From: Leishmania mexicana MHOM/GT/2001/U1103
Lineage: Eukaryota; Euglenozoa; Kinetoplastea; Trypanosomatida; Trypanosomatidae
NCBI RefSeq assembly: GCF_000234665.1
Contig: NC_018337.1
Coordinates: 248,001-312,000 of the forward strand
DNA length: 64,000 nucleotides
Reading direction: 5' to 3'
Positions 32,350 through 59,505 of this stretch are shown one piece after another. Below the pieces are notes generated by a model. It saw only the letters and a list, made by a program, of their open reading frames with translations. It was not told the DNA's origin and ran no database searches. The stretch's first letter is position 1, and every line of letters begins with the position of its first letter. Both the position numbers and the translations under genes were made by a program.

Positions 32350-35300
32350 ATGGGAAAAGCACGTGTCATGTCAAGCAGCACCTTGACGGGCGTTGACGTC
32401 AGAGCATCGCGGAGTCGCTCCACCTTTCTCGTGCATGGGGTACTGCGGCGTATCCCGGGATACGCCTTCCTTCTGATTCACTTGTGCTTTCTTCACATTC
32501 TGTGGGGGCAACTGGTGGACCAATTCTTCAACGCGACGATCACTTTCACGAATACCAACGTTACCAAAACGGACCTGGCCAAGGAGGCATTCATTCGTGT
32601 ATGTAACAGGATTTGTCGGTCGGTAAACCAGACACTGCTGCATGGACTAGTGGATGTTTTGAAGACGAAGAGCGGCGCGGGAGCGACCGGCGCGCTTGCG
32701 GCGTCACGAGAAATTCTTGCCTTTTTGTGGAAGTCTCCGTCTAGCATGGTGCTCTTCTTCGGCCTTGCATTCATCTGTCTCAACAGTGTACTCGCTGCAT
32801 TGCGGCTCTTCACCGGTTTCCTCAGCAGCCTCACAGCGCTATGTCGGAGTCGACGGCAGCTGGAGCGGGGTGGCTCGCGGAAGCCAGTGCCACTGCACAT
32901 CACTATGCGGTATGGCAACGGGTATGACAGCATGCTTCGTTTCACTCTGGCTGCTGTTGAGCTGGCCTGGTTCATGAGCTACCCTGTGTTGAGCTCGGCA
33001 GAATTCGCGAAGAGCACTGCGGACAAGACGCGTGGTGTGCCTGGGGTGACGGAGCCGACGTATGCTTCTCTGCGCCAACTCCAGGTGCGTCACCAAGCCA
33101 TCGCCAGCTTCCAAATTGAGGCCTCGCTCCTTCTCCCTCCGCAGCTGTTCGAGTCAACAGCCGACGCCATCGCCGCTGGCGCGTTTGTGATCATATTCGT
33201 GAAGGTGGTACTGGGAGTTGTAGTAGCGCTGGATGCGCAGCGCCTCTTTCACGGCCTTGTCGGGGTGCGGCCCCTTTTCATACCGAACGGGTGGGAGCGA
33301 TGTCCCGTATGCGGCGCTCTCTGGAAGCGGTCCCGCAAGGTCACCAACGCGGTCCACCTGTGCCCCAAGATTTTCACTGCCACACCGTTGCTCTCAGGCA
33401 GCTCTCCTGGCGCGACAGCATCGGACACGGAGGGGGAGGAGGAGGAAGACATGCGAGGGCAGGTGCCGGGCACGGTAAGGAGTAGTGTGGGTGACCGCAG
33501 GCGCGTTGGCCCCCCAACGGAAGCAACCCATCGCCCCGGCGACGCCTTTCCCAACCCGAACACGGTCTCGTTTGCCTCGTTGGTGACAGACAGCTGGGTC
33601 AGCCCTCTCATGAACTTCACTCTGCTCTCCCCCCTCAACACCTTCTCGCCCCCGCCCTTGTCCTCCATCACCGATGACGGACGTGGTCATTGGCGCGCAC
33701 TGCTGCGTGTAGTGGACCGACTACCGAGACTTCCACGCTCTCTGCGCACGCGAGACACGATCGACGAGCCAGCGTGGGCGCTGTGGCAGCGCCGACACGA
33801 GCTTGCTGCTCACGGAGAGGCTAGGTGGTTGGAGCGCAGTTTTATGGCCATCACAGGACCTATCCGCCGCGTCCTGCTGCGTGCCTTCGCAGTCTTCTTC
33901 CTCCCTCCCTCCGCGCGCGGAGCGGACACCCGACAGGACGCATGGGGTCCTGTCCGTAGTGGCTCGTCGCTCTTTCGCGTGTTTCTGCGCCACCCCAGCG
34001 GCCGTCAGTTTGTGCTTGTCTGTGTCCCGCTGAAGCTGACCCAAGACTTGCTGTCGCTGCTGGCCCCGCGAGTCGTAAAGTCGCTGGTGGCCTTTCTGAA
34101 GGAGGTGAGCGCATCGAACGTCAGCGTACGTCAGAGCTACCTCGGCCGCGGCCTCCTGATTTGCCTGAGTCTCATTCTGGTCGTGTCGCTTCAAGCTCTC
34201 TTTTTCCAGCTGTACCTGACCCACCTGTACGCCGCCTGCCTCAAGTCCGCCTCCGCATTGAAGACGTTGCTGCTGCGGCAGGCTCTGGCAACGCCATTGG
34301 CGTACGCCGGTGGAGGCAGGGGCGGTGGCGGCAAGAGGGCCCCCATGTCACCCTCGGCATCCGAAATCCCGCATTCCCCCACTCGCCCGAGTGAGAAGAA
34401 CGACGGGAAAGTAAAAGATGGGCTGTCCTTGTCAACGGTAATACCAACAGCTGAGGAAGTGACCACCACCCCTACGCTGTCACGCGAAGGCGTAATCATG
34501 TCACTTCTGACCGTCGACGTCACCAACTGCGCCGACTGCCTCATCTTCTTGCACAACGTGTGGGGTCACCCCTTCGTGATCATATCATCCTTGATGAGTA
34601 TGTACACATACGTCGGTCTCTTCTCTACGCTCGCTACGTTTGCCGCTCTCATCGCGCTGATTCCCCTGAACCGCAGCAGTGCCGCCCGCGTGCGCACAGC
34701 GCAGCAGCAAGCAAAAAACAACGAGTCTCGTCTCAGCGATCTCACCGCTGCCCTCTCGTCAATGCGCACAGTGAAGTCCATGGCACTGGAGGAGTGCCTC
34801 GTTGGGCGAGTGGAGGAAGCCCGCGTGAGAGAGAGTGATGGAACGAAGCTCGTTGGACAAGCAGAGAGCGTCGCTGCGGCGCAAACGGAAGTGACAACGT
34901 TGCTGGTCGCGCTCGTGTGCTGCGGGTCGTACCTTCTCACCGGTGGCGTCATGGACGCGGCGGTTCTGGTGCCGACGATGGCGGCGCTGCAGGTGATGCG
35001 GTTCCCTGTGTGGACGCTGCCGCACCTCTACTCGCAAGTCTCTCGCGGCTACACCTCGATGCAACGCATCGAGCGCTTTCTCTCCGAGCTCGAAGCCGGC
35101 GAGAACGCCAGCACCGCCTACGTGGAGCATCGCCTACGTCAGCAAAACGGCGAGGGTGCGGCGAGAGAAGTTCAGTCATCGGTTGCCGTAGCTGTGAGGG
35201 CCGGCGAAGTGCGATGTGACCGTGGCACATTCGCATGGAGCACGCAGGCAGCCGTGGCAGATCAAATCGCATTCGACAACGCCCTCTCCTGCAGCTCCCC

Positions 35301-38300
35301 GAAAGGGTTGCGCGCCTATGCCCGCTCACCGAACGCTGCGTCCAAGGAAGGTGACAGGCGAGGGGAAGAGGATGCCGCTTCAAGTTCTATGTTCAGCGTG
35401 TATAGTAGTCCGCGGGAGAGCGCCTCTCGCGCGGTCGTTCTACACGGCATCACCCTCAACATCTTTCCGGGTGAGTTTGTCGTGGTGCATGGTCCCACAG
35501 GGTGTGGGAAAAGCGCCCTGCTACTTTCCATGCTAGGAGAGCTGTACGTCATGCCGAATGACAGTGATGCCACGAGCACGAGAAGCACAACAGCAGCGTC
35601 GTCGGAGACGAGGGTTTCATCTGATAGTCAGGGATTTCAGGTGGGCGGTCGTGTGGTGTACTGTGCCGAGGTACCATGGTTGCGCCAGGGGACTATGCGA
35701 GAGAATATTCGCCTCGTCTCCGACGACGTCCCCGAGAGCCCGACGGAGAGAGAGTGGTACAATCGCGTGCTCGAAGCCTGCGCCCTCAAGAATGACATCA
35801 AGGCGTTGGCAAAGGGTGATCGCACCATGGTGGGTGAGGGTGGCTCGAAGTTGTCGGGGGGGCAGCGCGCGAGAGTGGCGCTAGCGCGTGCTGTGTACCG
35901 CTACAGCGAGACGGACGTATTCATCCTTGACGATGTCCTCTCCGCACTCGATGTGGAGGTGCAGAAGCACATCATTGCGAACCTGTTCCATGGACTCCTG
36001 TGTGCTGACGCAGGATCCTCCTCCGCCGAGCAGCGCCGCACAAAAACTGTTGTGCTCGCCACACACGCTGCGGTGAACCTGCTGATGCCAGATCGCGTGC
36101 TCCATCTGTGGCCGGATGGCACACTGCACGAGGACATGACCCACCAGGCGCCGACGGAGGACCAAGTGCACCGGCAGAAGAGCGCGTGGCGCAACGCGAC
36201 GGCGGCGGCGGCGACAAAAGAGCACCGACGGTCCATTCACTACCAGGCCGCTGGCACTGCGGCGGCAGATTTGTCGACGCGCCAGAACGAGTTCCTCCTT
36301 CCTCTGTCCACAAAGTCGAAGCCGGTGGCAGAACCATCACCCAAGCAGTCATCTGCGCCATCCGTGCGGCCGCCTGCGGCCGGCATCGATTCCCTTCTCC
36401 CACGCGCCGCGGATCTGCACCGGCTCTTCATCGAGTACATCGGCGGCGGGCGGCTCTTGTGGTTCTTTGCCCTCAGTGTGACCATGCAGCTTTTCCGGAC
36501 GCTGATGGATAACTGGCTGGGTGTGTACATTTCTCTCTACGATAAGCGTAATGCAGCCTACGAGACCATTTTGCGCAGTACCAAGTCCCAGCGAGCGCGC
36601 AAGTTCATGCTCGACATGCTGTCTCTTGTCGTCCTGCGAGGCGACAAGGCTACGCCGGCCCCACCACCCCCACCGGTGGTCCCCGTCTTCACCATCTTTG
36701 GTGTTCCTGTTGTGTGGCGCAACCCTTTTGTGCTGGACACCGTTGTCGCGCAGTTCCTTGGAACGTACGCCTTCATCGGCTTCAGCGCCGCGCTGCTGTC
36801 GATGATCCGCACCGACTACTTTTTCCGCTCGTATCAGCGCATGGCCGACGCGCTGCAGCTGCATGCAGTGCGCAAGTTGTTCAAGGCGCCGGTCTCCTAC
36901 TTCGACCGCATTCCGTCCAGTCGACTGTTGCAGATTCTCAGTCGCGATCAGGAAGTGGTAGATCGCGCCCTTGGTGAATCGGTTCAGCTCATATTTCTGA
37001 CAATTCTCCAGCTCTTCGGGATGGTGTGCTTCAACGCTATCCACTTCGGCCCTTTCATCGCTGTGTTTCCGATATCCGCGCTTCTCTTCTACCATCTGAC
37101 AGTTCGCTTTCTATCCTTCACCAAGCAAGTTCGCGCCCTGGAAGGTGTGCTGCAGAGTCGATCAGTTGCCGTCATGAAGGATGCCGTGAACGGGGCGATC
37201 ACGATTCGAGCCTTCGGTGCGGTGCTACAGGATCAGCTTGTGCAGGAGATGGACGAGGCGCTCGACGCTGTTCACATCGCCGCCAACGCCGGACTTACGG
37301 CGGATCGCTGGGTTGCCCTGCGGCTGGAGTTTGTTGCCCTTGCCTTAACTTCAGCGCTCGCACTCCTTTCGGTTCTGACGGTGTGTCTGTCGGCAACGAC
37401 GTCCGCAGGCAGCGCGGCGTTTGCCGGACTGGGCATCATTTCCAGCATGACCGCGTCGCGCTCCCTGTCGATGCTGTGCCGGCGCTTCGGCATGTTTCAG
37501 AACCAGTTCGTCAGCGCTGAGCAGCTTCTGCGCCTCGAGGAAGAGATACCAGCGGAAGAGACACCTGCAGCCGCAGAGGGTTGCAGCGATGATGAGTCCT
37601 CGGCGTCGGAGCGCTGCGCCGCCACGGAAGCGGGCACGTGCCTGCTGCTCGATGTACGCCACCTGTGTGCGAAATACCAACCACAACTTCCGTGGGTGCT
37701 GTCGGACATCTGTTTCACGCTGCGCCCGGGCGAGTGTGTGGGCCTGATTGGCCGTACAGGCAACGGCAAGTCGTCCCTCTTCAATGCCTTGCTTGGGCTC
37801 ATGGACGTCGTGGAGGGTGAAATCCGTATTCCTGGCGCGCTGTTTTCTTCCTCACCACAGCCAAAGGCACGACAACTCAACGCGATCCACCTCCCGCAGC
37901 ATGAGCTTCGCAAGAACTACTTCCAGCTGGTCTCCCAGGAACCGCTTCTCCTGCAAGGCACATGTCGCACCAACCTCCTCCTCGGCCTCGATGACGACAG
38001 TGCTGCGTCTCTGGGGGCATCTGATGAGCCCCGGGTCACAGTTGACGCGGAGGCCCTAGACGCGCGCCTGAGCGCGGTTCTGCGGAAGGTGGCCCTAGAT
38101 GAACTTCTCGAGCCGTCGTCCACCATGCCACTCCCGGGACAGCCGGCCGTAACTGGCGGCGATGGTGAGGTTGCGTCATCAGCAACCCGCGACGCAGAGG
38201 AGTCCGCCTCTGACTCTACCGCATCCCCAACCTCTACCGCCGACGTCGCCACCCGCGCGCTGGACCACGTCGTCACCGCTGGTGGATCAAACCTTTCCGC

Positions 38301-38622
38301 CGGACAACGCCAACTGTTGTGCCTCGCCCGCGCCATCCTGCACCGACCACACGTGGTTTTACTGGACGAAGTTAGCTCACGGGTGGACCGACGCACGGAT
38401 GACCTGATCCAGCGAGTCATCAAAGAAGAGATGCTATGCCGCGGTGGTGAGGGCGACGGCGACAGAAGTGCCGTGAAAAGCGGCGTCCTTCTCATTGCCC
38501 ATCGCCTGGAGACTATCATGTCCCTGTGCGATAGCGTCGTCGTCATAGAGAAGGGCAGGTGTGTCGCGCACTTGTCAAAAGAGGAGGTCAACTGTTTGGA
38601 GGACTTGGAGTCATACCTCTGA
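32350..38622 (+). CDS. ABC transporter, ABCC (MRP)-like full transporter (2090 aa)
   Basis: A membrane ATP-driven transporter with two halves. Hydrophobic segments near the N-terminus suggest an extra TMD0-like region; TMD1 begins near residue 555 and TMD2 near 1360. NBD1 has Walker A at about 1048 (G-P-T-G-C-G-K-S), signature L-S-G-G-Q near 1168 and Walker B ending I-L-D-D near 1191-1196. NBD2 has Walker A at 1801 (G-R-T-G-N-G-K-S), signature L-S-A-G-Q at 1982 and Walker B L-L-D-E at 2004-2007. Asp instead of Glu after the NBD1 Walker B is the usual ABCC asymmetry. The NBD1 Q-loop reads Y-C-A-E-V-P-W, with Glu where Gln is expected. A CxxC-x14-HxC cluster (Cys318, Cys321, His336, Cys338) lies in a predicted soluble stretch. 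Both H-loop histidines are present. Substrate is unknown; Leishmania ABCC proteins include thiol-conjugate and drug exporters. The start at 32350 follows an AG acceptor; Met at 32368 is an alternative. Confidence 0.9.
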   Translation: MGKARVMSSSTLTGVDVRASRSRSTFLVHGVLRRIPGYAFLLIHLCFLHILWGQLVDQFFNATITFTNTNVTKTDLAKEAFIRVCNRICRSVNQTLLHGLVDVLKTKSGAGATGALAASREILAFLWKSPSSMVLFFGLAFICLNSVLAALRLFTGFLSSLTALCRSRRQLERGGSRKPVPLHITMRYGNGYDSMLRFTLAAVELAWFMSYPVLSSAEFAKSTADKTRGVPGVTEPTYASLRQLQVRHQAIASFQIEASLLLPPQLFESTADAIAAGAFVIIFVKVVLGVVVALDAQRLFHGLVGVRPLFIPNGWERCPVCGALWKRSRKVTNAVHLCPKIFTATPLLSGSSPGATASDTEGEEEEDMRGQVPGTVRSSVGDRRRVGPPTEATHRPGDAFPNPNTVSFASLVTDSWVSPLMNFTLLSPLNTFSPPPLSSITDDGRGHWRALLRVVDRLPRLPRSLRTRDTIDEPAWALWQRRHELAAHGEARWLERSFMAITGPIRRVLLRAFAVFFLPPSARGADTRQDAWGPVRSGSSLFRVFLRHPSGRQFVLVCVPLKLTQDLLSLLAPRVVKSLVAFLKEVSASNVSVRQSYLGRGLLICLSLILVVSLQALFFQLYLTHLYAACLKSASALKTLLLRQALATPLAYAGGGRGGGGKRAPMSPSASEIPHSPTRPSEKNDGKVKDGLSLSTVIPTAEEVTTTPTLSREGVIMSLLTVDVTNCADCLIFLHNVWGHPFVIISSLMSMYTYVGLFSTLATFAALIALIPLNRSSAARVRTAQQQAKNNESRLSDLTAALSSMRTVKSMALEECLVGRVEEARVRESDGTKLVGQAESVAAAQTEVTTLLVALVCCGSYLLTGGVMDAAVLVPTMAALQVMRFPVWTLPHLYSQVSRGYTSMQRIERFLSELEAGENASTAYVEHRLRQQNGEGAAREVQSSVAVAVRAGEVRCDRGTFAWSTQAAVADQIAFDNALSCSSPKGLRAYARSPNAASKEGDRRGEEDAASSSMFSVYSSPRESASRAVVLHGITLNIFPGEFVVVHGPTGCGKSALLLSMLGELYVMPNDSDATSTRSTTAASSETRVSSDSQGFQVGGRVVYCAEVPWLRQGTMRENIRLVSDDVPESPTEREWYNRVLEACALKNDIKALAKGDRTMVGEGGSKLSGGQRARVALARAVYRYSETDVFILDDVLSALDVEVQKHIIANLFHGLLCADAGSSSAEQRRTKTVVLATHAAVNLLMPDRVLHLWPDGTLHEDMTHQAPTEDQVHRQKSAWRNATAAAATKEHRRSIHYQAAGTAAADLSTRQNEFLLPLSTKSKPVAEPSPKQSSAPSVRPPAAGIDSLLPRAADLHRLFIEYIGGGRLLWFFALSVTMQLFRTLMDNWLGVYISLYDKRNAAYETILRSTKSQRARKFMLDMLSLVVLRGDKATPAPPPPPVVPVFTIFGVPVVWRNPFVLDTVVAQFLGTYAFIGFSAALLSMIRTDYFFRSYQRMADALQLHAVRKLFKAPVSYFDRIPSSRLLQILSRDQEVVDRALGESVQLIFLTILQLFGMVCFNAIHFGPFIAVFPISALLFYHLTVRFLSFTKQVRALEGVLQSRSVAVMKDAVNGAITIRAFGAVLQDQLVQEMDEALDAVHIAANAGLTADRWVALRLEFVALALTSALALLSVLTVCLSATTSAGSAAFAGLGIISSMTASRSLSMLCRRFGMFQNQFVSAEQLLRLEEEIPAEETPAAAEGCSDDESSASERCAATEAGTCLLLDVRHLCAKYQPQLPWVLSDICFTLRPGECVGLIGRTGNGKSSLFNALLGLMDVVEGEIRIPGALFSSSPQPKARQLNAIHLPQHELRKNYFQLVSQEPLLLQGTCRTNLLLGLDDDSAASLGASDEPRVTVDAEALDARLSAVLRKVALDELLEPSSTMPLPGQPAVTGGDGEVASSATRDAEESASDSTASPTSTADVATRALDHVVTAGGSNLSAGQRQLLCLARAILHRPHVVLLDEVSSRVDRRTDDLIQRVIKEEMLCRGGEGDGDRSAVKSGVLLIAHRLETIMSLCDSVVVIEKGRCVAHLSKEEVNCLEDLESYL

Positions 38623-44244: not shown

Positions 44245-47200
44245 CTAATCGTGATCAAAATCTACCTGGACAATCTGGTCTCCAGGCACGTGGCATGCGT
44301 TGCTGGAATCAATCACGAACGCTGCCTTCAGTGCCTCCGGTCTATTACGCATCAAACGAGTCCAGTCGCCATCGAAGATCTTTGTGAGCCTGTGTGTCAC
44401 CTTCTGCTTTCCGGTGGGCACAGGGTCAGTCCAAAAACTGTTGAACTCCTTCAGTCTATTGATCTCTCTCTCCTTGGCATCCAGCAGAGCACGAAGATTC
44501 TCATTTTCTTTGCTGGCGTCCAGCGCATTCGCCAACTCGCTCTGCAGGTCCGCCATGTCTCGGCTTCGCTGCTCCAATGCCTCCACAGCCGTTCGCCCAG
44601 CGACATCAGCGGCTTCCAGCAAACCCTGAACCTCCTCCAAGTTGCCTAGCAGTTCATCATATTCATCCTTCTTCAGCTCAAGCTCGTCTAACGCTGCCTC
44701 CAGATCGTCACACAGCTGGTGACGCTCATCTTCCGCTACTTCCAGAGTAACTGCTACCTTCTTGTATGCATCCAGAGCGTCCGAAAGTTGCTCTTTCAAA
44801 CCACAAACCTCGTCCTCTAACTTAGCATTCTTCTCCCGCGCCTCATCCAACTCACTTCTAAGATTCTCCAAGGCATCAGCAACTTCCGCTTCTCGCGCTG
44901 GTGCATGATGGGCAGCCTCATCTGCCACGCCGCGCACATGCTGCAGCTCCTCCGCCAGCTTGTCGGCCTCCGCCTTGGCGCCCTCCAGTTCCACGGCGAG
45001 CCGCTGCACTTCGTCCGCCATGCGCTCCGCCTCGCCCATAGCTCGCTCCCCTGCGGCGTCTTTGGCCTTGAACTCTTCGATGGTGACGGCGTAGACCGGC
45101 TCGTTGGCGATGGTAGTCGGGTCGATGGGCTGGTAGGCGGGGTCGAGGAGCATGTGCTGCTGCGATGCAGTGCCGCGTGGTGCAGCGCTCTGTCCGCGTG
45201 GGGCTGCGCGGCCAGCGGGAGAACGACTACTAGTGGGTCCGCTGCTTGGCTCCACGCCGTCGGCATCCGCAAGTTCCGGCTCCGCGGCGCGCGCCTTCTT
45301 GGCGTCGTGGCGCTTCTGGCGAAACGCCTCGAGTTCCTCAGCGAGCTGATCTGCGAAGTCGCGCACATGCTGCAGCTCCTCCGCGGTGGCCACGTAGAGT
45401 GGCTCCTCCGCAATAACGGCGGGGGCCACGGGCACGGTGGCAGGGTCGACGGCCTGGCGCTGCACTGCGCCGACGTGCGGCAATGCTGCCCCCTTTCCGC
45501 TGCGCGGTGCGACGGCGTCGGCAGCAGCCAAGGCAGGGTCGCTTGCGCGCGCCTGCTGGGCATCGTGGCGCTTCTGGCGGTGCGCGGCGAGCTCCTCGTC
45601 CTTGGCGGCGAGCTCCTCCGCCAGCTTGTCGGCCTCCGCCTTGGCGCCCTCCAGTTCCACGGCGAGCCGCTGCACTTCGTCCGCCATGCGCTCCGCCTCG
45701 TCCATAGCTCGCTCCCCTGCGGCGTCTTTGGCCTTGAACTCTTCGATGGTGACGGCGTAGACCGGCTCGTTGGCGATGGTAGTCGGGTCGATGGGCTGGT
45801 AGGCGGGGTCGAGGAGCATGTGCTGCTGCGATGCAGTGCCGCGTGGTGCAGCGCTCTGTCCGCGTGGGGCTGCGCGGCCAGCGGGAGAACGACTACTAGT
45901 GGGTCCGCTGCTTGGCTCCACGCCGTCGGCATCCGCAAGTTCCGGCTCCGCGGCGCGCGCCTTCTTGGCGTCGTGGCGCTTCTGGCGAAACGCCTCGAGT
46001 TCCTCAGCGAGCTGATCTGCGAAGTCGCGCACATGCTGCAGCTCCTCCGCGGTGGCCACGTAGAGTGGCTCCTCCGCAATAACGGCGGGGGCCACGGGCA
46101 CGGTGGCAGGGTCGACGGCCTGGCGCTGCACTGCGCCGACGTGCGGCAATGCTGCCCCCTTTCCGCTGCGCGGTGCGACGGCGTCGGCAGCAGCCAAGGC
46201 AGGGTCGCTTGCGCGCGCCTGCTGGGCATCGTGGCGCTTCTGGCGGTGCGCGGCGAGCTCCTCGTCCTTGGCGGCGAGCTCCTCCGCCAGCTTGTCGGCC
46301 TCCGCCTTGGCGCCCTCCAGTTCCACGGCGAGCCGCTGCACTTCGTCCGCCATGCGCTCCGCCTCGTCCATAGCTCGCTCTCCTGCGGCGTCTTTGGCCT
46401 TGAACTCTTCGATGGTGACGGCGTAGACCGGCTCGTTGGCGATGGTAGTCGGGTCGATGGGCTGGTAGGCGGGGTCGAGGAGCATGTGCTGCTGCGATGC
46501 AGTGCCGCGTGGTGCAGCGCTCTGTCCGCGTGGGGCTGCGCGGCCAGCGGGAGAACGACTACTAGTGGGTCCGCTGCTTGGCTCCACGCCGTCGGCATCC
46601 GCAAGTTCCGGCTCCGCGGCGCGCGCCTTCTTGGCGTCGTGGCGCTTCTGGCGAAAAGCCTCTAGCTCGTGGAGACTATGAGCGAGGCGCTGGTTGGCCT
46701 GCACTGCACCTGCCTGTGCGTCACGTAGAGCGGAAGCCATGTAATGCTGGAAGAAGAACAGGCGGTCTTCTAATTCAGTGGCGTAGATCCGGGTACTAGT
46801 CGCAGCAGCGTACTGGTGAAGAAGATGAGATGCAGTGATAGCCAGTTTTTGATTTTGGGTGTATCGCGTGATCTTGGCATCGACAGGAATTTGCTCGACC
46901 TCATCCTTAGTCAGCACGCATCGCTTTACATCGCTGTCCACGTTGACCGGAGAGATGACGGCGGACAACGGAATGGTCACGAGGACTGATGTCCTGGTGA
47001 AGGAGGTGACCTGACCGGGGAGTGCAGCCGCGTCCTTTGAAGACAGCTCGTCCTTGAGCTTGGCGATCTTGGCGCGACAGGCCTTCATGCCAGCAATGGC
47101 GGCTGCGATGGCGTCGTTCTGCTCCTGGATGCGCTTGTCGTGCGCCAGGAGGTTGTACGCCTGCTGGTAGGCAAGAGCCGTGGTGACCCACGCGTGGAGG

Positions 47201-47621
47201 CTGGCCACCACCGGCGAGTTGCGCGCCGCCGCCTTGTAGTTCAGCTTGGGGTCCTGCTCCAGGGACTGCTGCAGGCTTTCCGCAGAAGGGTAGGGCTTCT
47301 TGAGAACGTCTGTCTTGGCGATCTCATCGAGAGCGGCTGTCTTGCGGTAGTCCAGTTGCACATCTGCCCACTCATAGAACTCAACCGCCGTGGGATCGCA
47401 CTTGGCCACCGGCCACACCGCCTTCAGCACTGCTACAGCAACCGGGGATGGGGCGGCCTGGGCCGTGACCTTGCGCAAATCGACCTCGTCAATGAGCTCT
47501 ACTTTTTCACGGGCCTTGTCAAAGTGACCTCGAACGTGTGAAACACGATCCTCGTTGCTACGGCGGATGGATGCGAGCTTCTCTCGTGCGACGCCCAGCA
47601 TGTCATGATAGTTCTTCATGC
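44245..47621 (-). CDS. Giant coiled-coil repeat protein A (FAZ1-like candidate), 5' end lost in the gap
   Basis: Partial: the frame runs from the edge of the N gap at 47621 to a stop at 44245-44247, giving about 1125 residues. By comparison with the neighbour at 48545-54562, roughly 75 N-terminal residues are missing in the gap. The first 245 visible residues are nearly identical to the neighbour and resemble the dynein stalk region (A-P-S-P-V-A-V-A-V-L-K-A-V-W, later S-L-H-A-W-V-T-T-A-L-A-Y). A divergent segment follows, then 2.6 copies of a 222-residue repeat, a coiled coil of about 200 residues, and a C-terminal module ending I-F-D-G-D-W ... A-C-H-V-P-G-D ... F-D-H-D. FAZ1 of the flagellum attachment zone is a similarly repetitive filament protein; this identity is a guess from architecture and recalled gene order. 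No signal peptide or membrane segment is visible. Confidence 0.8.
44946..46657 (-). repeat. 666-bp (222-aa) tandem repeats, 2.6 copies, in the coding sequence
   Basis: Identical landmarks recur exactly 666 bp apart (for example 45152, 45818 and 46484). Copies differ at only a few bases, such as GCCCATAG against GTCCATAG and CTCCCCTG against CTCTCCTG. Each unit encodes coiled-coil segments (E-L-E-G-A-K-A-E-A-D-K-L-A-E-E-L) separated by Ser/Pro/Ala linkers and by E-P-L-Y-V-A-T and E-P-V-Y-A-V-T motifs. The near identity points to recent amplification or homogenisation. Confidence 0.9.
46887..47621 (-). repeat. Near-identical duplicated segment, copy 1
   Basis: 735 bp collinear with 53605-54339 (offset 6718) without indels; by eye I find five base differences. 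Homology stops abruptly at 46887 inside the coding sequence and runs into the N gap at the other end. Confidence 0.9.
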
Positions 47622-47721
47622 NNNNNNNNNNNNNNNNNNNNNNNNNNNNNNNNNNNNNNNNNNNNNNNNNNNNNNNNNNNNNNNNNNNNNNNNNNNNNNN
47701 NNNNNNNNNNNNNNNNNNNNN
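47622..47721. other. Assembly gap of 100 N
   Basis: Exactly 100 unknown bases, a conventional size for a gap of unknown length. It removes the 5' coding end of repeat protein A. The lost part must be at least about 225 bp if that gene keeps the N-terminus of its paralogue. Confidence 0.98.
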
Positions 47722-48544
47722 TGCGTACAAAACGTAGTGTGCAAACGGGAACTGTTCACACACATACACGTGAGCAGTGCAGGCAACAACGCACAGAGAA
47801 GGTACCTATGTACCAAATCATGAAGGCAATCGTCTAAATAGCGCTCCGTGCAGAAACACATGCGATATTACCGTGCTGTGTGCGTAAGATGAGCCAAATG
47901 CCGTAAAGTTCAAGCAATTTATGGACATTTTAGATCTCTGAGCATACACGGCACCCCTTCGACCTCAGCAGGGCTGTTTTCTGTTTCCTTTTGCTGACCA
48001 GTGGCGACCACCAATCAGCGCATTGGGTCGCTTCCGGCGAGACGCATCTAAGCATCCCCTCGGACACGATATCGCACCGAATCACCCCGCAATGTTCCCA
48101 AAACACACCCACCCACACACACAAACAATGACATACACACGAAGGGGAGAGGCGTAAGTAGTGCCATCAGCAATAGAAAATGTGACGGTGCATATCTTTC
48201 TCAACCTCCTCTCCTTGCTATGCGCTCTGGGTGCAAAGTCCACCTCCCCCAAAAAGAGCACAGGCTACTATTCCTGCATATGCAAACAGAAATGCACAGA
48301 AAAAGCACGACCACAACACTTCACTTCCCCAACGCCATAGTGAACACGCAAGGTTGGGGAGAAGATGACAGTGCAAGTGGAAGCTGGTTGAGGGAGTGAA
48401 AATATAGAGGGAGAGGGAGTGGGGAGAACGGACAAAAGGCTCGCCAAACGCTCGAACAACTGTTCCCCTGTCTTCAGCTCTCCCATACGTTCACCACTCA
48501 GAACTGCGCCACACATCACCCGCCTCCCGAGCAAGAATCACGAC
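47722..48544. other. Spacer between the two repeat-protein genes
   Basis: AT-richer non-coding DNA. It should contain the 3' UTR of repeat protein B and the splice acceptor and leader of repeat protein A, although part of the latter may be in the gap. The minus-strand pyrimidine-rich stretch at about 48400-48420 is a possible tract. No gene supported. Confidence 0.5.
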
Positions 48545-51500
48545 TTAGTCGTGATCAAAGCTCACTTGTTTGATGTTGTTGCCGGGAACGTGGCATGCAT
48601 TACCGGAATCAATTATAAACGCCGCAAATAGCGCCTCTGGACGCTCGCGAACAATCCTTTCCCAGTTTCCATCAAATATCTTCGTGTGCCGGGTGACAAT
48701 CTGCTTCTTGTCCCCGGGGGGATCCTCCCAAAGCTCATTGTGATAGCGCAGTTCCTTTACTTCGCATTCCTTGTCGCGTAATAGGGCCAGCAGTGCATCA
48801 TTGATTCCCTTCAGCTTCTTCAACTCCATCAAAACAACAAGAAGCTCCCCCTCCATGGCCGCACCATCTTCTTGCCGACGACAATCCACCTCATAAGCTT
48901 GATCGCGTACTTTCTCAAGTTCCACCATCAGTCCTGAGTTTTCCCTCAACTTTTCCTCCGCAGCTTCCTGCGCAGCACAGGCCAGCGCCAGTGCCTTCTC
49001 CAAAGCGGCCTGCTTAGCTTTGTACTCATCTAGCGTCACCACGTAGAGCGGCTCTGCCGCGATGGTTGCGGGGTCCACAGAGTCCCCGCCGTGGGGCACC
49101 TGGGCAGCGGGCCGTCTGCCGTTGCCTGCGCCGGTATCGACCGGCGAGACCCCATCAGCTGCCGCCAGCTCCCGTTCCCCGGTGCGCGCTTCCTTCGCAG
49201 CGCTCCGCTTCGCCCGAAACGCGGCCAGCTCTGTATCCTTGTCAGCAAGCACTCTCGCCCGACTCTCGGCCTCCTCCTGCGCCTTCTGGAGCTCACCCGC
49301 GAGCGTCTCGGCCTCTTCCTCAGCCTTCTCCAGGTCGCCGGCCAGCCGCTCGTTGTCGCTGGCCAGCTTGCGGTTGTCGGCCAGCTGCCTCTCACCCTCC
49401 TCCTGCGCCTTCTGGAGCTCACCCGCCAGCGTCTCGGCCTCTTCCTCAGCCTTCTCCAGGTCGCCGGCCAGCCGCTCGGCCTCCTCCTGCGCCCTCTCCA
49501 GCTCGGCGGCCAGCCGCTCGTTGTCGCTGGCCAGCTTGCGGTTGTCGGCCAGCTGCCTCTCACCCTCCTCCTGCGCCTTCTGGAGCTCACCCGCCAGCGT
49601 CTCGGCCTCTTCCTCAGCCTTCTCCAGGTCGCCGGCCAGCCGCTCGGCCTCCTCCTGCGCCCTCTCCAGCTCGGCGGCCAGCCGCTCGTTGTCGCTGGCC
49701 AGCTTGCGGTTGTCGGCCAGCTGCCTCTCACCCTCCTCCTGGGCCTTCTCCAGGTCGCCGGCCAGCCGCTCGGCCTCCTCCTGCGCCCTCTCCAGCTCGG
49801 CGGCCAGCCGCTCGTTGTCGCTGGCCAGCTTGCGGTTGTCGGCCAGCTGCCTCTCACCCTCCTCCTGCGCCTTCTGGAGCTCACCCGCCAGCGTCTCGGC
49901 CTCTTCCTCAGCCTTCTCCAGGTCGCCGGCCAGCCGCTCGGCCTCCTCCTGCGCCCTCTCCAGCTCGGCGGCCAGCCGCTCGTTGTCGCTGGCCAGCTTG
50001 CGGTTGTCGGCCAGCTGCCTCTCACCCTCCTCCTGCGCCTTCTGGAGCTCACCCGCCAGCGTCTCGGCCTCTTCCTCAGCCTTCTCCAGGTCGCCGGCCA
50101 GCCGCTCGGCCTCCTCCTGCGCCCTCTCCAGCTCGGCGGCCAGCCGCTCGTTGTCGCTGGCCAGCTTGCGGTTGTCGGCCAGCTGCCTCTCACCCTCCTC
50201 CTGCGCCTTCTGGAGCTCACCCGCCAGCGTCTCGGCCTCTTCTTCAGCCTTCTCCAGGTCGCCGGCCAGCCGCTCGGCCTCCTCCTGCGCCCTCTCCAGC
50301 TCGGCGGCCAGCCGCTCGTTGTCGCTGGCCAGCTTGCGGTTGTCGGCCAGCTGCCTCTCACCCTCCTCCTGCGCCTTCTGGAGCTCACCCGCCAGCGTCT
50401 CGGCCTCTTCCTCAGCCTTCTCCAGGTCGCCGGCCAGCCGCTCGGCCTCCTCCTGCGCCCTCTCCAGCTCGGCGGCCAGCCGCTCGTTGTCGCTGGCCAG
50501 CTTGCGGTTGTCGGCCAGCTGCCTCTCACCCTCCTCCTGGGCCTTCTCCAGGTCGCCGGCCAGCCGCTCGGTCTCCTCCTGCGCCCTCTCCAGCTCGGCG
50601 GCCAGCCGCTCGTTGTCGCTGGCCAGCTTGCGGTTGTCGGCCAGCTGCCTCTCACCCTCCTCCTGCGCCTTCTGGAGCTCACCCGCCAGCGTCTCGGCCT
50701 CTTCCTCAGCCTTCTCCAGGTCGCCGGCCAGCCGCTCGGCCTCCTCCTGCGCCCTCTCCAGCTCGGCGGCCAGCCGCTCGTTGTCGCTGGCCAGCTTGCG
50801 GTTGTCGGCCAGCTGCCTCTCACCTTCCTCCTGCGCCTTCTGGAGCTCACCCGCCAGCGTCTCGGCCTCTTCCTCAGCCTTCTCCAGGTCGCCGGCCAGC
50901 CGCTCGGCCTCCTCCTGCGCCCTCTCCAGCTCGGCGGCCAGCCGCTCGTTGTCGCTGGCCAGCTTGCGGTTGTCGGCCAGCTGCCTCTCACCCTCCTCCT
51001 GCGCCTTCTGGAGCTCACCCGCCAGCGTCTCGGCCTCTTCCTCAGCCTTCTCCAGGTCGCCGGCCAGCCGCTCGGCCTCCTCCTGCGCCCTCTCCAGCTC
51101 GGCGGCCAGCCGCTCGTTGTCGCTGGCCAGCTTGCGGTTGTCGGCCAGCTGCCTCTCACCCTCCTCCTGCGCCTTCTGGAGCTCACCCGCCAGCGTCTCG
51201 GCCTCTTCCTCAGCCTTCTCCAGGTCGCCGGCCAGCCGCTCGGCCTCCTCCTGCGCCCTCTCCAGCTCGGCGGCCAGCCGCTCGTTGTCGCTGGCCAGCT
51301 TGCGGTTGTCGGCCAGCTGCCTCTCACCCTCCTCCTGCGCCTTCTGGAGCTCACCCGCCAGCGTCTCGGCCTCTTCTTCAGCCTTCTCCAGGTCGCCGGC
51401 CAGCCGCTCGGCCTCCTCCTGCGCCCTCTCCAGCTCGGCGGCCAGCCGCTCGTTGTCGCTGGCCAGCTTGCGGTTGTCGGCCAGCTGCCTCTCACCCTCC

Positions 51501-54500
51501 TCCTGCGCCTTCTGGAGCTCACCCGCGAGCGTCTCGGCCTCTTCCTCAGCCTTCTCCAGGTCGCCGGCCAGCCGCTCGGCCTCCTCCTGCGCCCTCTCCA
51601 GCTCGGCGGCCAGCCGCTCGTTGTCGCTGGCCAGCTTGCGGTTGTCGGCCAGCTGCCTCTCACCCTCCTCCTGCGCCTTCTGGAGCTCACCCGCCAGCGT
51701 CTCGGCCTCTTCCTCAGCCTTCTCCAGGTCGCCGGCCAGCCGCTCGGCCTCCTCCTGCGCCCTCTCCAGCTCGGCGGCCAGCCGCTCGTTGTCGCTGGCC
51801 AGCTTGCGGTTGTCGGCCAGCTGCCTCTCACCCTCCTCCTGGGCCTTCTCCAGGTCGCCGGCCAGCCGCTCGGCCTCCTCCTGCGCCCTCTCCAGCTCGG
51901 CGGCCAGCCGCTCGTTGTCGCTGGCCAGCTTGCGGTTGTCGGCCAGCTGCCTCTCACCCTCCTCCTGCGCCTTCTGGAGCTCACCCGCGAGCGTCTCGGC
52001 CTCTTCCTCAGCCTTCTCCAGGTCGCCGGCCAGCCGCTCGGCCTCCTCCTGCGCCCTCTCCAGCTCGGCGGCCAGCCGCTCGTTGTCGCTGGCCAGCGCC
52101 TCGGCCTGGTCCTCTGCGTTGTGGAGCGCGGCCTGTTTGGATTTGTATTCATCTAGCGTCACTACGTAGAGCGGGTCTGCGGCGAGGGTGGCGGGGTCGA
52201 CGGCCTCTCTGCTCACGTTCACGACGGCAGAGAGGCGGGTGCGGCTGCTTGTGTGGGCATATGACAGCGAGAGCCCATCGGCCGCAGCGAGCTCGGGTTC
52301 ATCGGCGCGAGCGTCTTTGGCAGCGCGGCGCTGCTGGTGGAAGGCGTCGAGCTGCTGTTGTTGTTTTTCGCTGAGCTGGGCGGCAAGTTGAAGTTTGTTG
52401 TCGAGGTCATTGCTACGACATTGGGCTTCGTGTAGGTGGCTTTGAAGCTGCGTTATAGCGGCTTCCTGTGCGTCAAGCTGGGTCTCGAGGTTGTCTGCGC
52501 GTTGTTTTTCTTCGTCACAGAGTGCCTTTTGAGCGTTCAACTCATCGATAGTAACGGCGTACAACGGTTCCTCTGCGGTGGGTGGGATGGGTGAGAGATT
52601 GCGGTGTGCGCGAAGCTGTTGTGCTTCCTGGTGCTGCATGTGGTAGTGCTCGAGCTGTGCGCCTTGCTTGTCTGCAAGGTCCTTAAGCTTTGCGACGAGG
52701 TTTTGAAGGCGATCAATCTCATCGGCAAGGTCCGAGTTGCGCAGGGTGAGAGCGTCCTGATCGCGCTGAAGCACCGCAGCCTGCTTCTTGAAGCGTTCCG
52801 CAGACTTTTCAAGGGTGTACTGGAGCGACCTGTTCTCGTTGTTGATCTTATCCAGAAGCATGAGAAGATCCCCAATTTCGCTCTCGTATGCGTCTTTGTC
52901 TCCTAAGTAGTCGAATCCGGCAAGTTGGGTAACGAACTCGTCGAAGCCAAGCCCCGCAAACTTGTGATCGTCGATTCCCAGGGCGTGGCAGATTTCAGTC
53001 ACGGCCCTGTCCAGACCTGTTTTTGGAGCGTCGCGATTTTTGTAAATGTAATTCATCAGCCGTGTGGGCATCTCCGAAAGACGCTCATCCACTTCCGTTC
53101 GCGTCATCTTGGCAGGGTGGGTTATCTCACATCTCACACACAACTGATCACACTCTGGGACAAACTTAATGTGCTGAACAAAGTTGGGATCAACGTGGAC
53201 TGCAAGCGCTGTATCAGAAGCGAAGGCGGCACGCACTTCCTCGAATCTCTCTGCTATCAAGTACGCCCATTCGGCACCAGGGTACTTCTTCACGTGTGAT
53301 GTTGCCACTGAGACAGCTTCGTAATCTGGTTCCCACCTCTCATCATGGTTTTGCAGTTCAGCAACCAGGGCATTCAAACGATCGATTTCCTTCTGAGTGT
53401 CCTCAGTGCGTTCCCACTTGGCTTCTGCCTCACCATTTCGGATAATAGACGAAAAGTAGTGCTCCTGTAGGTAGAGACGCTTTTTTTCCAGCTCTGCAGT
53501 GTAAAGGGAGAGTGTGTGCAGTTCTGCTGCTGCTTCGACGTACCGGGAGGCAATAGAGTTCATGCGACTCTTTAGTTGAAAACGCAATGCCTTAGCTTCA
53601 AGGAGAATTTGCTCGACCTCATCCTTAGTCAGCACGCATCCCTTTACATCGCTGTCCACGTTGACCGGAGAGATGACGGCGGACAACGGAATGGTCACGA
53701 GGACTGATGTCCTGGTGAAGGAGGTGACCTGACCGGGGAGTGCAGCCGCGTCCTTTGAAGACAGCTCGTCCTTGAGCTTGGCGATCTTGGCGCGACAGGC
53801 CTTCATGCCAGCAATGGCGGCTGCGATGGCGTCGTTCTGCTCCTGGATGCGCTTGTCGTGCGCCAGGAGGTTGTACGCCTGCTGGTAGGCAAGAGCCGTG
53901 GTGACCCACGCGTGGAGGCTGGCCACCACCGGCGAGTTGCGCGCCGCCGCCTTGTAGTTCAGCTTGGGGTCCTGCTCCAGGGACTGCTGCAGGCTTTCCG
54001 CAGAAGGGTAGGGCTTCGTGAGAACGTCTGTCTTGGCGATCTCATCGAGAGCGGCTGTCTTGCGGTACTCCAGTTGCACATCTGCCCACTCGTAGAACTC
54101 AACCGCCGTGGGATCGCACTTGGCCACCGCCCACACCGCCTTCAGCACTGCTACAGCAACCGGGGATGGGGCGGCCTGGGCCGTGACCTTGCGCAAATCG
54201 ACCTCGTCAATGAGCTCTACTTTTTCACGGGCCTTGTCAAAGTGACCTCGAACGTGTGAAACACGATCCTCGTTGCTACGGCGGATGGATGCGAGCTTCT
54301 CTCGTGCGACGCCCAGCATGTCATGATAGTTCTTCATGCGTCCATTTTCCGTGTCGACCTCTTTGAGGAGAATGGAGCGCAGCGTGTCAATGTCTCCGGT
54401 GTGAAGGCCCCATTGCTGCACGACGGCCGTGTAGTCCTTGATCTCACGCACCGTACCCAGGGTCCACTGCCATGTCTTCGCAGCGTGGAGGTAGTCGTAG

Positions 54501-54562
54501 GCGACCACCTGCCCAGGTTGCAGTTGGGTAAAGGGGGGATTGATGTTGCTCGAAAAAGACAT
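48545..54562 (-). CDS. Giant coiled-coil repeat protein B (FAZ1-like candidate, 2005 aa)
   Basis: Residues about 15-60 look like a small beta-barrel (Q-P-G-Q-V-V-A-Y-D-Y, then W-T-L-G-T-V-R-E-I). Residues about 110-300 resemble the dynein heavy-chain stalk: an A-x-P-S-P stretch, V-L-K-A-V-W, D-P-K-L-N, then S-P-V-V-A-S-L-H-A-W-V and long flanking helices. Residues 320-650 are unique helical sequence with two Cys (C-D-Q-L-C-V-R-C). Residues about 650-820 are coiled coil. Residues about 820-1775 hold tandem 56- and 42-residue coiled-coil repeats. The C-terminus repeats the module of its neighbour (I-F-D-G-N-W ... A-C-H-V-P-G-N ... F-D-H-D). The start at 54562 (M-S-F-S-S-N-I) is the first Met and precedes the barrel. 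A filamentous cytoskeletal role is likely; FAZ1 identity is a hypothesis. Function is otherwise unproven. Confidence 0.85.
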   Translation of the reverse strand: MSFSSNINPPFTQLQPGQVVAYDYLHAAKTWQWTLGTVREIKDYTAVVQQWGLHTGDIDTLRSILLKEVDTENGRMKNYHDMLGVAREKLASIRRSNEDRVSHVRGHFDKAREKVELIDEVDLRKVTAQAAPSPVAVAVLKAVWAVAKCDPTAVEFYEWADVQLEYRKTAALDEIAKTDVLTKPYPSAESLQQSLEQDPKLNYKAAARNSPVVASLHAWVTTALAYQQAYNLLAHDKRIQEQNDAIAAAIAGMKACRAKIAKLKDELSSKDAAALPGQVTSFTRTSVLVTIPLSAVISPVNVDSDVKGCVLTKDEVEQILLEAKALRFQLKSRMNSIASRYVEAAAELHTLSLYTAELEKKRLYLQEHYFSSIIRNGEAEAKWERTEDTQKEIDRLNALVAELQNHDERWEPDYEAVSVATSHVKKYPGAEWAYLIAERFEEVRAAFASDTALAVHVDPNFVQHIKFVPECDQLCVRCEITHPAKMTRTEVDERLSEMPTRLMNYIYKNRDAPKTGLDRAVTEICHALGIDDHKFAGLGFDEFVTQLAGFDYLGDKDAYESEIGDLLMLLDKINNENRSLQYTLEKSAERFKKQAAVLQRDQDALTLRNSDLADEIDRLQNLVAKLKDLADKQGAQLEHYHMQHQEAQQLRAHRNLSPIPPTAEEPLYAVTIDELNAQKALCDEEKQRADNLETQLDAQEAAITQLQSHLHEAQCRSNDLDNKLQLAAQLSEKQQQQLDAFHQQRRAAKDARADEPELAAADGLSLSYAHTSSRTRLSAVVNVSREAVDPATLAADPLYVVTLDEYKSKQAALHNAEDQAEALASDNERLAAELERAQEEAERLAGDLEKAEEEAETLAGELQKAQEEGERQLADNRKLASDNERLAAELERAQEEAERLAGDLEKAQEEGERQLADNRKLASDNERLAAELERAQEEAERLAGDLEKAEEEAETLAGELQKAQEEGERQLADNRKLASDNERLAAELERAQEEAERLAGDLEKAEEEAETLAGELQKAQEEGERQLADNRKLASDNERLAAELERAQEEAERLAGDLEKAEEEAETLAGELQKAQEEGERQLADNRKLASDNERLAAELERAQEEAERLAGDLEKAEEEAETLAGELQKAQEEGERQLADNRKLASDNERLAAELERAQEEAERLAGDLEKAEEEAETLAGELQKAQEEGERQLADNRKLASDNERLAAELERAQEEAERLAGDLEKAEEEAETLAGELQKAQEEGERQLADNRKLASDNERLAAELERAQEEAERLAGDLEKAEEEAETLAGELQKAQEEGERQLADNRKLASDNERLAAELERAQEETERLAGDLEKAQEEGERQLADNRKLASDNERLAAELERAQEEAERLAGDLEKAEEEAETLAGELQKAQEEGERQLADNRKLASDNERLAAELERAQEEAERLAGDLEKAEEEAETLAGELQKAQEEGERQLADNRKLASDNERLAAELERAQEEAERLAGDLEKAEEEAETLAGELQKAQEEGERQLADNRKLASDNERLAAELERAQEEAERLAGDLEKAEEEAETLAGELQKAQEEGERQLADNRKLASDNERLAAELERAQEEAERLAGDLEKAQEEGERQLADNRKLASDNERLAAELERAQEEAERLAGDLEKAEEEAETLAGELQKAQEEGERQLADNRKLASDNERLAAELERAQEEAERLAGDLEKAEEEAETLAGELQKAQEEGERQLADNRKLASDNERLAGDLEKAEEEAETLAGELQKAQEEAESRARVLADKDTELAAFRAKRSAAKEARTGERELAAADGVSPVDTGAGNGRRPAAQVPHGGDSVDPATIAAEPLYVVTLDEYKAKQAALEKALALACAAQEAAEEKLRENSGLMVELEKVRDQAYEVDCRRQEDGAAMEGELLVVLMELKKLKGINDALLALLRDKECEVKELRYHNELWEDPPGDKKQIVTRHTKIFDGNWERIVRERPEALFAAFIIDSGNACHVPGNNIKQVSFDHD
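49236..52107 (-). repeat. Tandem 168/126-bp coiled-coil repeats (about 17 units)
   Basis: The codons for K-L-A-S-D-N recur 17 times between 49364 and 51931. Spacing fits 168 bp for most intervals and 126 bp for three, ending near 49740, 50540 and 51840. The long unit has 56 residues (A-E-R-L-A-G-D-L-E-K, A-E-E-E-A-E-T-L-A-G, E-L-Q-K ...); the short unit lacks 14 residues of the A-E-E-E-A-E-T-L-A-G type. A truncated unit ends the array at the low-coordinate side. Copies differ at isolated bases only. Confidence 0.9.
53605..54339 (-). repeat. Near-identical duplicated segment, copy 2
   Basis: Partner of 46887-47621. The five base differences I find cause four amino-acid changes (Gly/Arg, Thr/Lys, Glu/Asp, Ala/Pro) and one silent change. 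Outside the tract the two genes are clearly different until the C-terminal module. Confidence 0.9.
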
Positions 54563-58025: not shown

Positions 58026-58655
58026 ATGAAGCGCGTTATAAAAACTGGTACCCCGGGGCCCCGGCAGGCCTACATGAACAAAAGCAAGTACAACCCAAAC
58101 CGTTACAAACAGGAGAAGGATCGCATATCTCGACAAACAGAGTTTGTAATGGCGAGCCTGTGCTGTCGGCGGTGCTGTGAGATTATTCAATGGAAGGTTG
58201 ACTATGGTAAGTATACTTCACAAGAGCAGAGCCGCCGTTGCAACTTGTGCCGGGATAATAAAGTGACTCATGCTTACCACCGCATCTGCCAACAGTGCGC
58301 TGAACGCGAGGCAGTGTGTGCAAAGTGCCAAAAGCACCCAGCAGCATCAGCCGCCAACACCGAGGCTGACGTGCCCAAAACGGACTCAGATCAAGAATCG
58401 TCGGAAGGGAGTGTCGAGTACTTAGAGAAACTGAGAGAGCCGAGCAAGTATGCGTTTGTTGACGTCGCTCCCGATGAAGAAGAGCTTCAGCGGCTCACGG
58501 GTCTCAATACTCGCGTTTTGCAGCAAAAGTTAAGGAAACGACGAGAGGCTGAAGCTCGTCAATCCCTAGGTAGTTTGCGCGAGCGTGAAAGGCGAACTGT
58601 GCTGCGGAAAGCAACCATCCAAACTGACGCCTCCGACAGTGACGAGAATTTGTAA
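58026..58655 (+). CDS. C9orf85/DUF2039-type zinc-binding protein (209 aa)
   Basis: Matches the arrangement of the eukaryotic DUF2039 family: a basic N-terminus with R-Q-A-Y-M-N-K-S-K-Y and Y-K-Q-E-K, then paired cysteines at 46/47/50/51, the hallmark I-I-Q-W-K-V-D-Y-G-K-Y, then Cys72-x2-Cys75, A-Y-H-R-I-C-x-x-C (88/91) and C-A-K-C (98/101). These should bind zinc. The C-terminal half is acidic then highly charged and helical, ending D-S-D-E-N-L. The family's molecular function is not established. It is the first plus-strand gene after the divergent strand switch. No AG lies between the nearest pyrimidine tract and ATG 58026, so the start could instead be the Met 16 codons in. Codon use is less GC-biased than in the left-hand genes. 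Confidence 0.8.
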   Translation: MKRVIKTGTPGPRQAYMNKSKYNPNRYKQEKDRISRQTEFVMASLCCRRCCEIIQWKVDYGKYTSQEQSRRCNLCRDNKVTHAYHRICQQCAEREAVCAKCQKHPAASAANTEADVPKTDSDQESSEGSVEYLEKLREPSKYAFVDVAPDEEELQRLTGLNTRVLQQKLRKRREAEARQSLGSLRERERRTVLRKATIQTDASDSDENL

Positions 58656-59022
58656 GCGTGTAATCTCATAACACAGCCGCGAGGAACCAAAGACGCTCTG
58701 ATAACAGTCGGTTAACTGCGTCCCCGCCAGTCAAAGTGAAGGTGGCGAAAACGAGTCCCAAACATGAACAGTGCTGAATATTCTCTCGTACTGTATGCGG
58801 CGCACAAGGGAATGCTACTAATTATCTCTTTCGCGCTCGAAGCGCATCACTTACCATAGCATGCTCGTGTGTATTATGTCACGCATGATTCTCTCCAGGG
58901 CTCGATGAGCCCGTGTGAAGAAGCTCAAACGGTGCTCTTATACTCCCTGTCCCTCTTTATGGCCACTTTCCTGTGTTTTTATTGCCCCTTTCAAGGACTC
59001 ACTAGATATTGACCCCTTACAA
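58656..59022. other. Short spacer before the TMEM216-like gene
   Basis: 367 bases. A pyrimidine-rich stretch at about 58932-58993 ending in AG at 58994-58995 looks like the splice acceptor for ATG 59023. The in-frame ATG at 58915 lies before this acceptor and is unlikely to be used. Confidence 0.5.
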
Positions 59023-59505
59023 ATGCCCGCCTCTGGCGGCGCCACTGGGGGTGCATCTTTTCTATTTCACCTCCAGCTGCTTACGTCAATAGGATGGTCA
59101 GCGATCTGGTGGATTGTGACATTAGGTCTTCTAATCTTCAAAGCTCTCTACCTACCGTTTCCACCAGCTGCTCTCCCAATGGAGATAGTCGCGTCTTTCT
59201 TGGTTCTCCTTGTGAATACTTTTGGTGTCCTCATAGGGATGCGTGGAAACAAAACGGAAGGCACCTCAGCGATAGTCATCAGTGCCGTTCTTTTATCGAT
59301 TGCCGCTGTGGGGGCCATTTACTACATGTGGCTACAAACATATGTGCTGATGATGGATTTGGCGTTTTCAGCGACCTACCTAGGGATTAACTGTGTTGCG
59401 ATACTGCTTGGTTTTTGGGCTACTCAAAGTGTCGCCAGGCTTGCTCGAGTGCCTGCCTTCAAGCTTGAAGTCGAAAGCGGGAGGAGTGAGAAAAAGAAGA
59501 ACTAG
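59023..59505 (+). CDS. TMEM216: TMEM216-like tetraspan protein of the ciliary transition zone (160 aa)
   Basis: Four hydrophobic segments (residues about 15-40, 50-72, 82-102 and 108-135) in a 160-residue protein fit the TMEM216/TMEM17 (Transmemb_17) family. Motifs in family order: a K-A-L-Y-L-P-F-P-P stretch after TM1, G-M-R-G-N-K-T between TM2 and TM3 (family: F-x-G-x-K-G-N), and Y-Y-M-W-L-Q-T-Y-V-L at the end of TM3, strikingly close to the vertebrate Y-Y-L-L-L-Q-T-Y-V-L. Human TMEM216 has 145 residues. In ciliated eukaryotes these proteins belong to the MKS/B9 module that gates membrane protein entry at the base of the cilium; a flagellated trypanosomatid would use it at the transition zone. 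The C-terminal tail is basic. The start at 59023 follows a splice-type tract. Confidence 0.75.
   Translation: MPASGGATGGASFLFHLQLLTSIGWSAIWWIVTLGLLIFKALYLPFPPAALPMEIVASFLVLLVNTFGVLIGMRGNKTEGTSAIVISAVLLSIAAVGAIYYMWLQTYVLMMDLAFSATYLGINCVAILLGFWATQSVARLARVPAFKLEVESGRSEKKKN

Follow-up and report, generated by a model that had tools for sequence, protein, structure and literature searches.

The 64,000-nucleotide window analyzed here (Leishmania mexicana MHOM/GT/2001/U1103, contig NC_018337.1, positions 248,001 to 312,000) lies within contig C33 of the searched genome (32.0 Mb, 545 contigs) and encodes, on the minus strand at window positions 48545 to 54562, a 2005-residue protein in open-reading-frame translation. 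An earlier note on this DNA had treated the frame as real and guessed at a component of the flagellum attachment zone (FAZ). Both calls were right: domain content and sequence similarity identify the protein as the L. mexicana orthologue of FAZ1. It carries both Pfam families of FAZ1 (FAZ1_C, E = 6.1e-119; FAZ1_cons, E = 3.7e-32), and a Trypanosoma brucei flagellar attachment zone protein (P0011) shares 44% identity with it over 98% of residues 1 to 520. P0011 is taken to be Tb927.4.3740, listed as T. brucei FAZ1 in the table of a review (PMC4827413). Beyond the N-terminal head described below, the L. mexicana protein contains the FAZ1_cons domain (PF23398, residues 419 to 510, 53033 to 53308), a body of coiled-coil repeats (FAZ1_C, PF23404, 49264 to 52097) built on a 168-bp unit encoding four 14-residue repeats, and, at the C-terminus, a half-copy of FAZ1_cons (48545 to 48700, C33:296545-296700) recovered by a profile search of the genome, all on the minus strand. 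FAZ1_cons has 74 matches at E<=0.1 across the genome, many in tandem on contigs C26 and C32. The T. brucei and L. mexicana proteins share the head, FAZ1_cons, the FAZ1_C repeats and the C-terminus, whereas their repeat sequences are unlike and L. mexicana has a tandem paralogue that joins the same head to another repeat body. Three long antisense frames (1021 to 1102 residues) are open across the FAZ1 repeats (49062 to 52374, plus strand), because the repeat units are multiples of three and the G+C content is high.

Structurally, the head is an antiparallel stalk set on a small beta domain. In a model of residues 1 to 330 (pLDDT 84.8), with secondary structure assigned by DSSP, strands 19-26, 30-41 and 45-54 precede the stalk and strands 279-292, 296-300 and 308-312 follow it, so that the stalk is predicted to sit between the third and fourth strands. 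On the minus strand, the first three strands (residues 15 to 56) are encoded at 54395 to 54520, the stalk helix CC1 (residues 58 to 116) at 54215 to 54391, a tip homologous to the dynein microtubule-binding domain (MTBD; residues 117 to 235) at 53858 to 54214, the helix CC2 (residues 236 to 268) at 53759 to 53857, and the returning strands with a CVLTxDEV motif (residues 279 to 313) at 53624 to 53728. CC1 spans 59 residues, which gives the antiparallel coil a length of about 9 nm. The first strands bear the signature VxAY..WxWxLGTV..QW, of which W31, W33, L35, G36, T37 and W51 do not vary across 15 sequences drawn from two families. Although this base matched no known family, nor any fold in a Foldseek search that barely tests the beta part, we infer a small domain of SH3/Tudor-like type into which the stalk is inserted, in the way that dynein's own stalk breaks into its AAA ring. 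The earlier note had likened residues of about 110 to 300 to a dynein stalk on the strength of motifs that are all present (PSP at 132-134, VLKAVW at 139-144, DPKLN at 198-202 and SPVVASLHAWV at 210-220). A stalk does lie there, but the module is wider than was claimed, beginning with CC1 at residue 58 and flanked by the strands of residues 19-54 and 279-312.

Profile comparison strongly links this head to dynein. A profile of nine FAZ1-type heads (residues 57 to 275; P0002, P0004, P0007, P0013 and P0014 excluded) was aligned by HHalign with the stalks of the 12 L. mexicana dynein heavy chains, defined by PF12777 matches in open frames of 4136 to 5702 residues. The two profiles match with a probability of 96.8 and E = 2.6e-10 over 183 colinear columns. 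Controls were far weaker, as seen for the reversed profile (E = 0.12), the best of 60 column shuffles (E = 0.044), the best of a further 60 shuffled in 7-column blocks (E = 0.0067) and the best of six coiled-coil decoys of the same family (E = 1.3e-5, over only 96 columns). Since the decoys show that coiled coil alone lifts the score, a coil-free comparison was made, in which residues 125 to 235 still match the dynein tip (E = 1.9e-6; 100 shuffles reach 0.017 at best). A HMMER search with the dynein profile covered 14 proteins (first 420 residues each), and its E-values, which apply to this small set, are 5.6e-10 or lower for the ten complete FAZ1 heads and for the two readings of the truncated paralogue (P0002, P0007), 2.2e-7 for P0014 and 0.0075 for the headless P0013. 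Conversely, a profile of seven FAZ1 heads (alignment A4, also without P0003, P0004, P0006 and P0007) searched against PDB sequences by hmmsearch returned 16 rows at E<=10. Dyneins account for 13 of these (best E = 6e-7); the others are one relative deposited as mL100 and two unrelated proteins at E = 0.42 and 1.3.

The predicted fold points the same way. The model shows an antiparallel coiled coil carrying a globular helical tip, as a dynein stalk does, and dyneins occupy ranks 1 to 42 of the Foldseek search. The yeast microtubule-binding domain (6kjo) aligns over 140 of 141 residues at 2.5 Å and 6rzb_C over 148 of 149 at 3.1 Å; the top 11 hits include seven tip-only structures, of which five superpose at 2.4 to 3.5 Å over 125 to 149 residues and two at 4.2 and 5.3 Å. 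The homology of the FAZ1 head to the dynein stalk and tip, which the earlier note had proposed and which is neither obvious nor detected by Pfam, thus gains support from profiles, sequences and fold alike. The same note had seen no motor, and no AAA family is found at E<=1 by Pfam in FAZ1 or in its paralogue. By computation, the FAZ1 stalk is motorless.

Searches of the genome place the FAZ1 head among several relatives. PF12777 exceeds its cut-off in the 12 dyneins and at two further loci, C9:306429-306968 and C30:501562-502062. A genome search with the FAZ1 head yields eight hits at E<=1: FAZ1, the paralogue, the C9 and C30 loci, C22:538446, C33:969588, C33:956964 and C23:566380, the last (E = 0.74) being taken as a chance match. 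The C9 family (P0015-P0027, ‘kinetoplast-associated protein-like’) and the C30 family (P0028-P0043, ‘Dynein heavy chain coiled coil stalk domain’) share the beta start, CC1, tip and CC2 order of FAZ1, and an SSI...LT segment after CC2 resembles FAZ1 residues 279 to 313 in sequence. C30 proteins are about 627 residues long and lack the FAZ1 repeats, while the C9 protein, identical over 99% of its length to P0015 of L. mexicana MHOM/GT/2001/U1103 (100% identity), has FAZ1_cons and, unlike FAZ1, a hydrophobic C-terminus resembling a tail anchor. Both families are already recognized in databases, as annotations such as ‘Microtubule-binding stalk of dynein motor’ indicate, whereas none of the FAZ1 relatives retrieved from the protein database carries a PF12777 annotation. 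The C9 protein (L015:1550-5872) and P0044 both combine a stalk with a hydrophobic, tail-anchor-like end (for example ...VCLGVLLLFSFTTLQYKKY), and their sequences make them candidate microtubule-to-membrane tethers, perhaps of FAZ-associated endoplasmic reticulum.

C22:538446, a FAZ10-like giant protein, aligns by HHalign with the FAZ1 head at E = 1.3e-11 over 270 columns and with dynein at 1.4e-4; C33:969588 gives 1.9e-6 and 6.3e-5, respectively. As their single-sequence dynein scores do not exceed those of the coiled-coil decoys, the stalk assignment of both depends on their likeness to FAZ1. C22:538446 lies on the same chromosome as LmxM.22.1320, named FAZ10 in PMC4760377, making its identity as FAZ10 a candidate assignment. 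In C33:956964, the beta part matches the FAZ1 head at E = 2.5e-9 over 77 columns, and the dynein score is 0.022. This protein (L041) is FAZ1-like, with a beta domain, a shorter hairpin and no dynein-type tip; the hairpin is followed by a FAZ1_cons-like stretch and then by DKDAYESEIGDLLMLLDK, shared with FAZ1. A separate oddity is P0014 of T. theileri, a FAZ1_cons protein of 1155 residues named ‘dynein heavy chain, cytosolic’ although far too short for one; the name may stem from its stalk-like head. The proposed L. mexicana stalk family comprises FAZ1, the paralogue, C22:538446, C9, C30, C33:969588 and the tipless C33:956964. The broader proposal is tentative and falls slightly short of an even balance: kinetoplastids would possess a set of related dynein stalks, motorless and mounted on a beta base, several of which would tie the FAZ filament or membranes statically to microtubules, the dynein arm having been reused as a fixed clamp.

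The tandem paralogue is visible at 44245 to 47621 (minus strand), where its sequence and its similarity to L. infantum P0003 reveal a repeat body different from that of FAZ1. Its head, found by the head-query genome search (46861 to 47622, minus strand), is 96% identical to FAZ1 residues 75 to 328, and its C-terminus (44245 to 44400, minus strand) is again a half-copy of FAZ1_cons, according to Pfam and the genome profile search. The earlier note had recognized the shared head correctly, but position 44245, by which it located the neighbor, is the 3' end. An assembly gap of 100 N (47622 to 47721) covers the first residues and masks the true start; the GTG start listed at 47769 falls past the run. 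P0003 combines a complete FAZ1-type head with a body of the paralogue's type. From the ATG at 47619 downward, the paralogue head differs from the FAZ1 head (about 53615 to 54337) in 5 of 240 codons (one silent, four not), and identity drops sharply near FAZ1 residue ~316. The L. mexicana paralogue is also nearer to L. mexicana FAZ1 (236/240) than to L. infantum P0003 (230/241). Either gene conversion or an artifact of assembly next to the N run would explain this near-identity. The pair forms a short minus-strand block flanked by plus-strand genes, which include an RPN11-like proteasome subunit (24949 to 26061), an ABC transporter (32269 to 38622), a DUF2039 protein (58026 to 58655) and a Transmemb_17 protein (58915 to 59505). 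Four further open reading frames of 1000 to 2400 residues at 7497 to 30334 (plus strand) have no Pfam match at E<=0.001, as is the case for all six frames scanned (0/6).

For FAZ1 itself, these features suggest a passive, non-motile arm that docks the FAZ filament on microtubules, an account toward which the whole of the evidence leans, if only modestly. The antiparallel coiled coil of about 9 nm would carry the MTBD-like tip, set in a beta domain rather than in an AAA ring; the long repeat coiled coil would polymerize into or along the FAZ filament; the heads would project as passive arms whose tips bind tubulin directly and hold adjacent microtubules, either the quartet or the subpellicular array; and the filament would thereby be tied to the corset without ATP-driven movement. 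Published observations fit this model in three respects: the reported line-and-ring position of L. mexicana FAZ1 beside the flagellar pocket, the association of a FAZ filament-like structure with the quartet (both PMC4760377), and the thin appendages of ~30-50 nm that join filament sticks to microtubules (PMC7394968). Because a stalk of about 9 nm is too short for such a span, some of the coiled coil would have to belong to the arm too. The same gene id, LmxM.36.5970, is printed for FAZ1 and FAZ5 in PMC4760377, probably a slip, and so the localization report is not tied by id to the frame at 48545 to 54562. Filament-microtubule linkers have been observed, with their identity described as uncertain in PMC7394968 and PMC4827413, and FAZ1, FAZ8, FAZ10, FAZ4 and FAZ6 are stated to share PFAMB506 (PMC4827413).

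Other explanations of the head, however, have to be weighed. Chance or convergent coiled coil, with no shared descent from dynein, could draw on the ability of coil alone to raise scores, but the tip match survives removal of the coil, most tip-only dynein structures superpose on the model and the PDB sequence search finds dynein MTBDs, leaving convergence very improbable. A motor function fares worse still. Trépout 2020 (PMC7394968) reports Phyre2 predictions of a dynein stalk and motor in FAZ proteins, names motor predictions for FAZ1, FAZ2 and FAZ10, and builds on them an ‘alternative pull’ model in which FAZ1 and FAZ10 pull as motors along microtubules. That study thus claims a motor in FAZ1, FAZ10 and perhaps FAZ2, whereas FAZ1 here shows only stalk and tip: no AAA family is detected at E<=1, the fold matches fall mostly within model residues 55 to 276, that is, the stalk, and the later part of the protein consists of coiled-coil repeats and FAZ1_cons. 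A dynein-like motor in FAZ1 is exceedingly improbable, and stalk-containing templates may lie behind the Phyre2 call. The paralogue, for its part, raises the question of a mitochondrial ribosome protein in which the head would serve. The deposited sequence of chain BG of 7aih, named mL100 (also in 7am2 and 7ane), matches P0003 residues 1 to 1272 with 2691 bits, and we take these entries to be Leishmania mitoribosomes and mL100 to be a mitoribosome protein name. Against this, the mL100 chain is absent among the 50 best matches listed in either Foldseek search of the head models, so that the head is probably not built in the 7aih structure, and P0003 has no further PDB relative at E<=1e-5. A ribosomal role is very improbable, and we suspect that the name or the sequence was wrongly assigned.

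The main rival to the passive microtubule arm is a pseudo-MTBD, in which the dynein-type fold is kept, the tip no longer grips tubulin and the stalk docks another FAZ or collar protein; it is a serious possibility, if a rather less probable one. The tip surface was compared across eight FAZ1 heads (without P0006, P0014 and the FAZ10-like head), the 12 dyneins, 4 of 13 C9 rows and 5 of 16 C30 rows, at what we take to be the yeast microtubule-contact positions K3116, K3117, R3124 and R3201 (Redwine 2012). Several results weigh against microtubule docking by a dynein-like arm. Every FAZ1 head has Thr at the 3124 position (8/8), where 10 of 12 dyneins are basic, and the K3116/K3117 positions are occupied by D119/E120 (8/8), although the dyneins themselves have Asp at 3116 in 4 of 12 and a basic residue at 3117 in only 2 of 12. 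The tip net charge is -1 to -7 in all eight FAZ1 heads, as opposed to +1 to +5 in 11 of the dyneins; the twelfth dynein has -1. FAZ1 lacks a proline found after the tip, in CC2, of many L. mexicana dyneins, whole stalks superpose only loosely (5ayh 12.8 Å, 3wuq 6.0 Å, 8i3j 6.7 Å) in contrast to the tips alone, and PF12777, the Pfam check proposed in the earlier note, gives no match in FAZ1 at E<=1 for the whole protein or at E<=10 for residues 61 to 320, a failure read as a lack of sensitivity because the profile, sequence and fold tests match dynein. The review also suggests placing FAZ1 in filament zone 5, not in the quartet-linker zone (PMC4827413). Beyond the acidic tip and the lost basic residue at 3124, the pseudo-MTBD is favored by CC2, which is the head segment best conserved between the L. 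mexicana and T. brucei proteins (70%, 23/33, versus 46%, 55/119, for the tip), as expected of a partner-binding face, and by C33:956964, whose beta part and hairpin indicate that the head can exist without a tip. On the other side, the tip fold is retained and Arg at the 3201 position (R208) is invariant in the FAZ1 heads (8/8; basic in 8/12 dyneins). The tips of the relatives are neutral to positive in four C9 (0 to +3) and five C30 proteins (+2 to +8), though P0044 (-2) and C33:969588 (-1) are not. From model fold and alignment counts, the FAZ1 tip has kept the dynein fold and changed its surface. Microtubule docking by the FAZ1 head remains plausible, with tip charge and contact residues partly against canonical binding.

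The dynein stalk/MTBD (PF12777; 5ayh, 3err, 6kjo, 6rzb) and the FAZ1 head are alike in the antiparallel coil, the helical tip, the colinear profile and the tip fold; FAZ1 differs in the absence of an AAA ring, its insertion in a beta domain, the acidic tip, the altered contacts and the missing CC2 proline. The earlier note had not seen such a fusion described. This is only partly borne out, since Trépout 2020 already reports predictions of a dynein stalk and motor in FAZ proteins, whereas no published account of a motorless stalk in FAZ1 was found in the open-licence literature, a scope outside which most subscription papers fall. What is new, by computation, is that a known cytoskeletal protein carries a dynein stalk with no motor, mounted on a new base, a beta domain that the stalk interrupts, and that the head recurs in other L. 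mexicana genes, once without the tip. A dynein-type gripping arm without a motor offers a concrete candidate for the tie between the FAZ filament and microtubules, and its motorless state argues against the published idea of FAZ1 as a motor. The FAZ1 head would be a clear case of a dynein stalk reused outside dynein.

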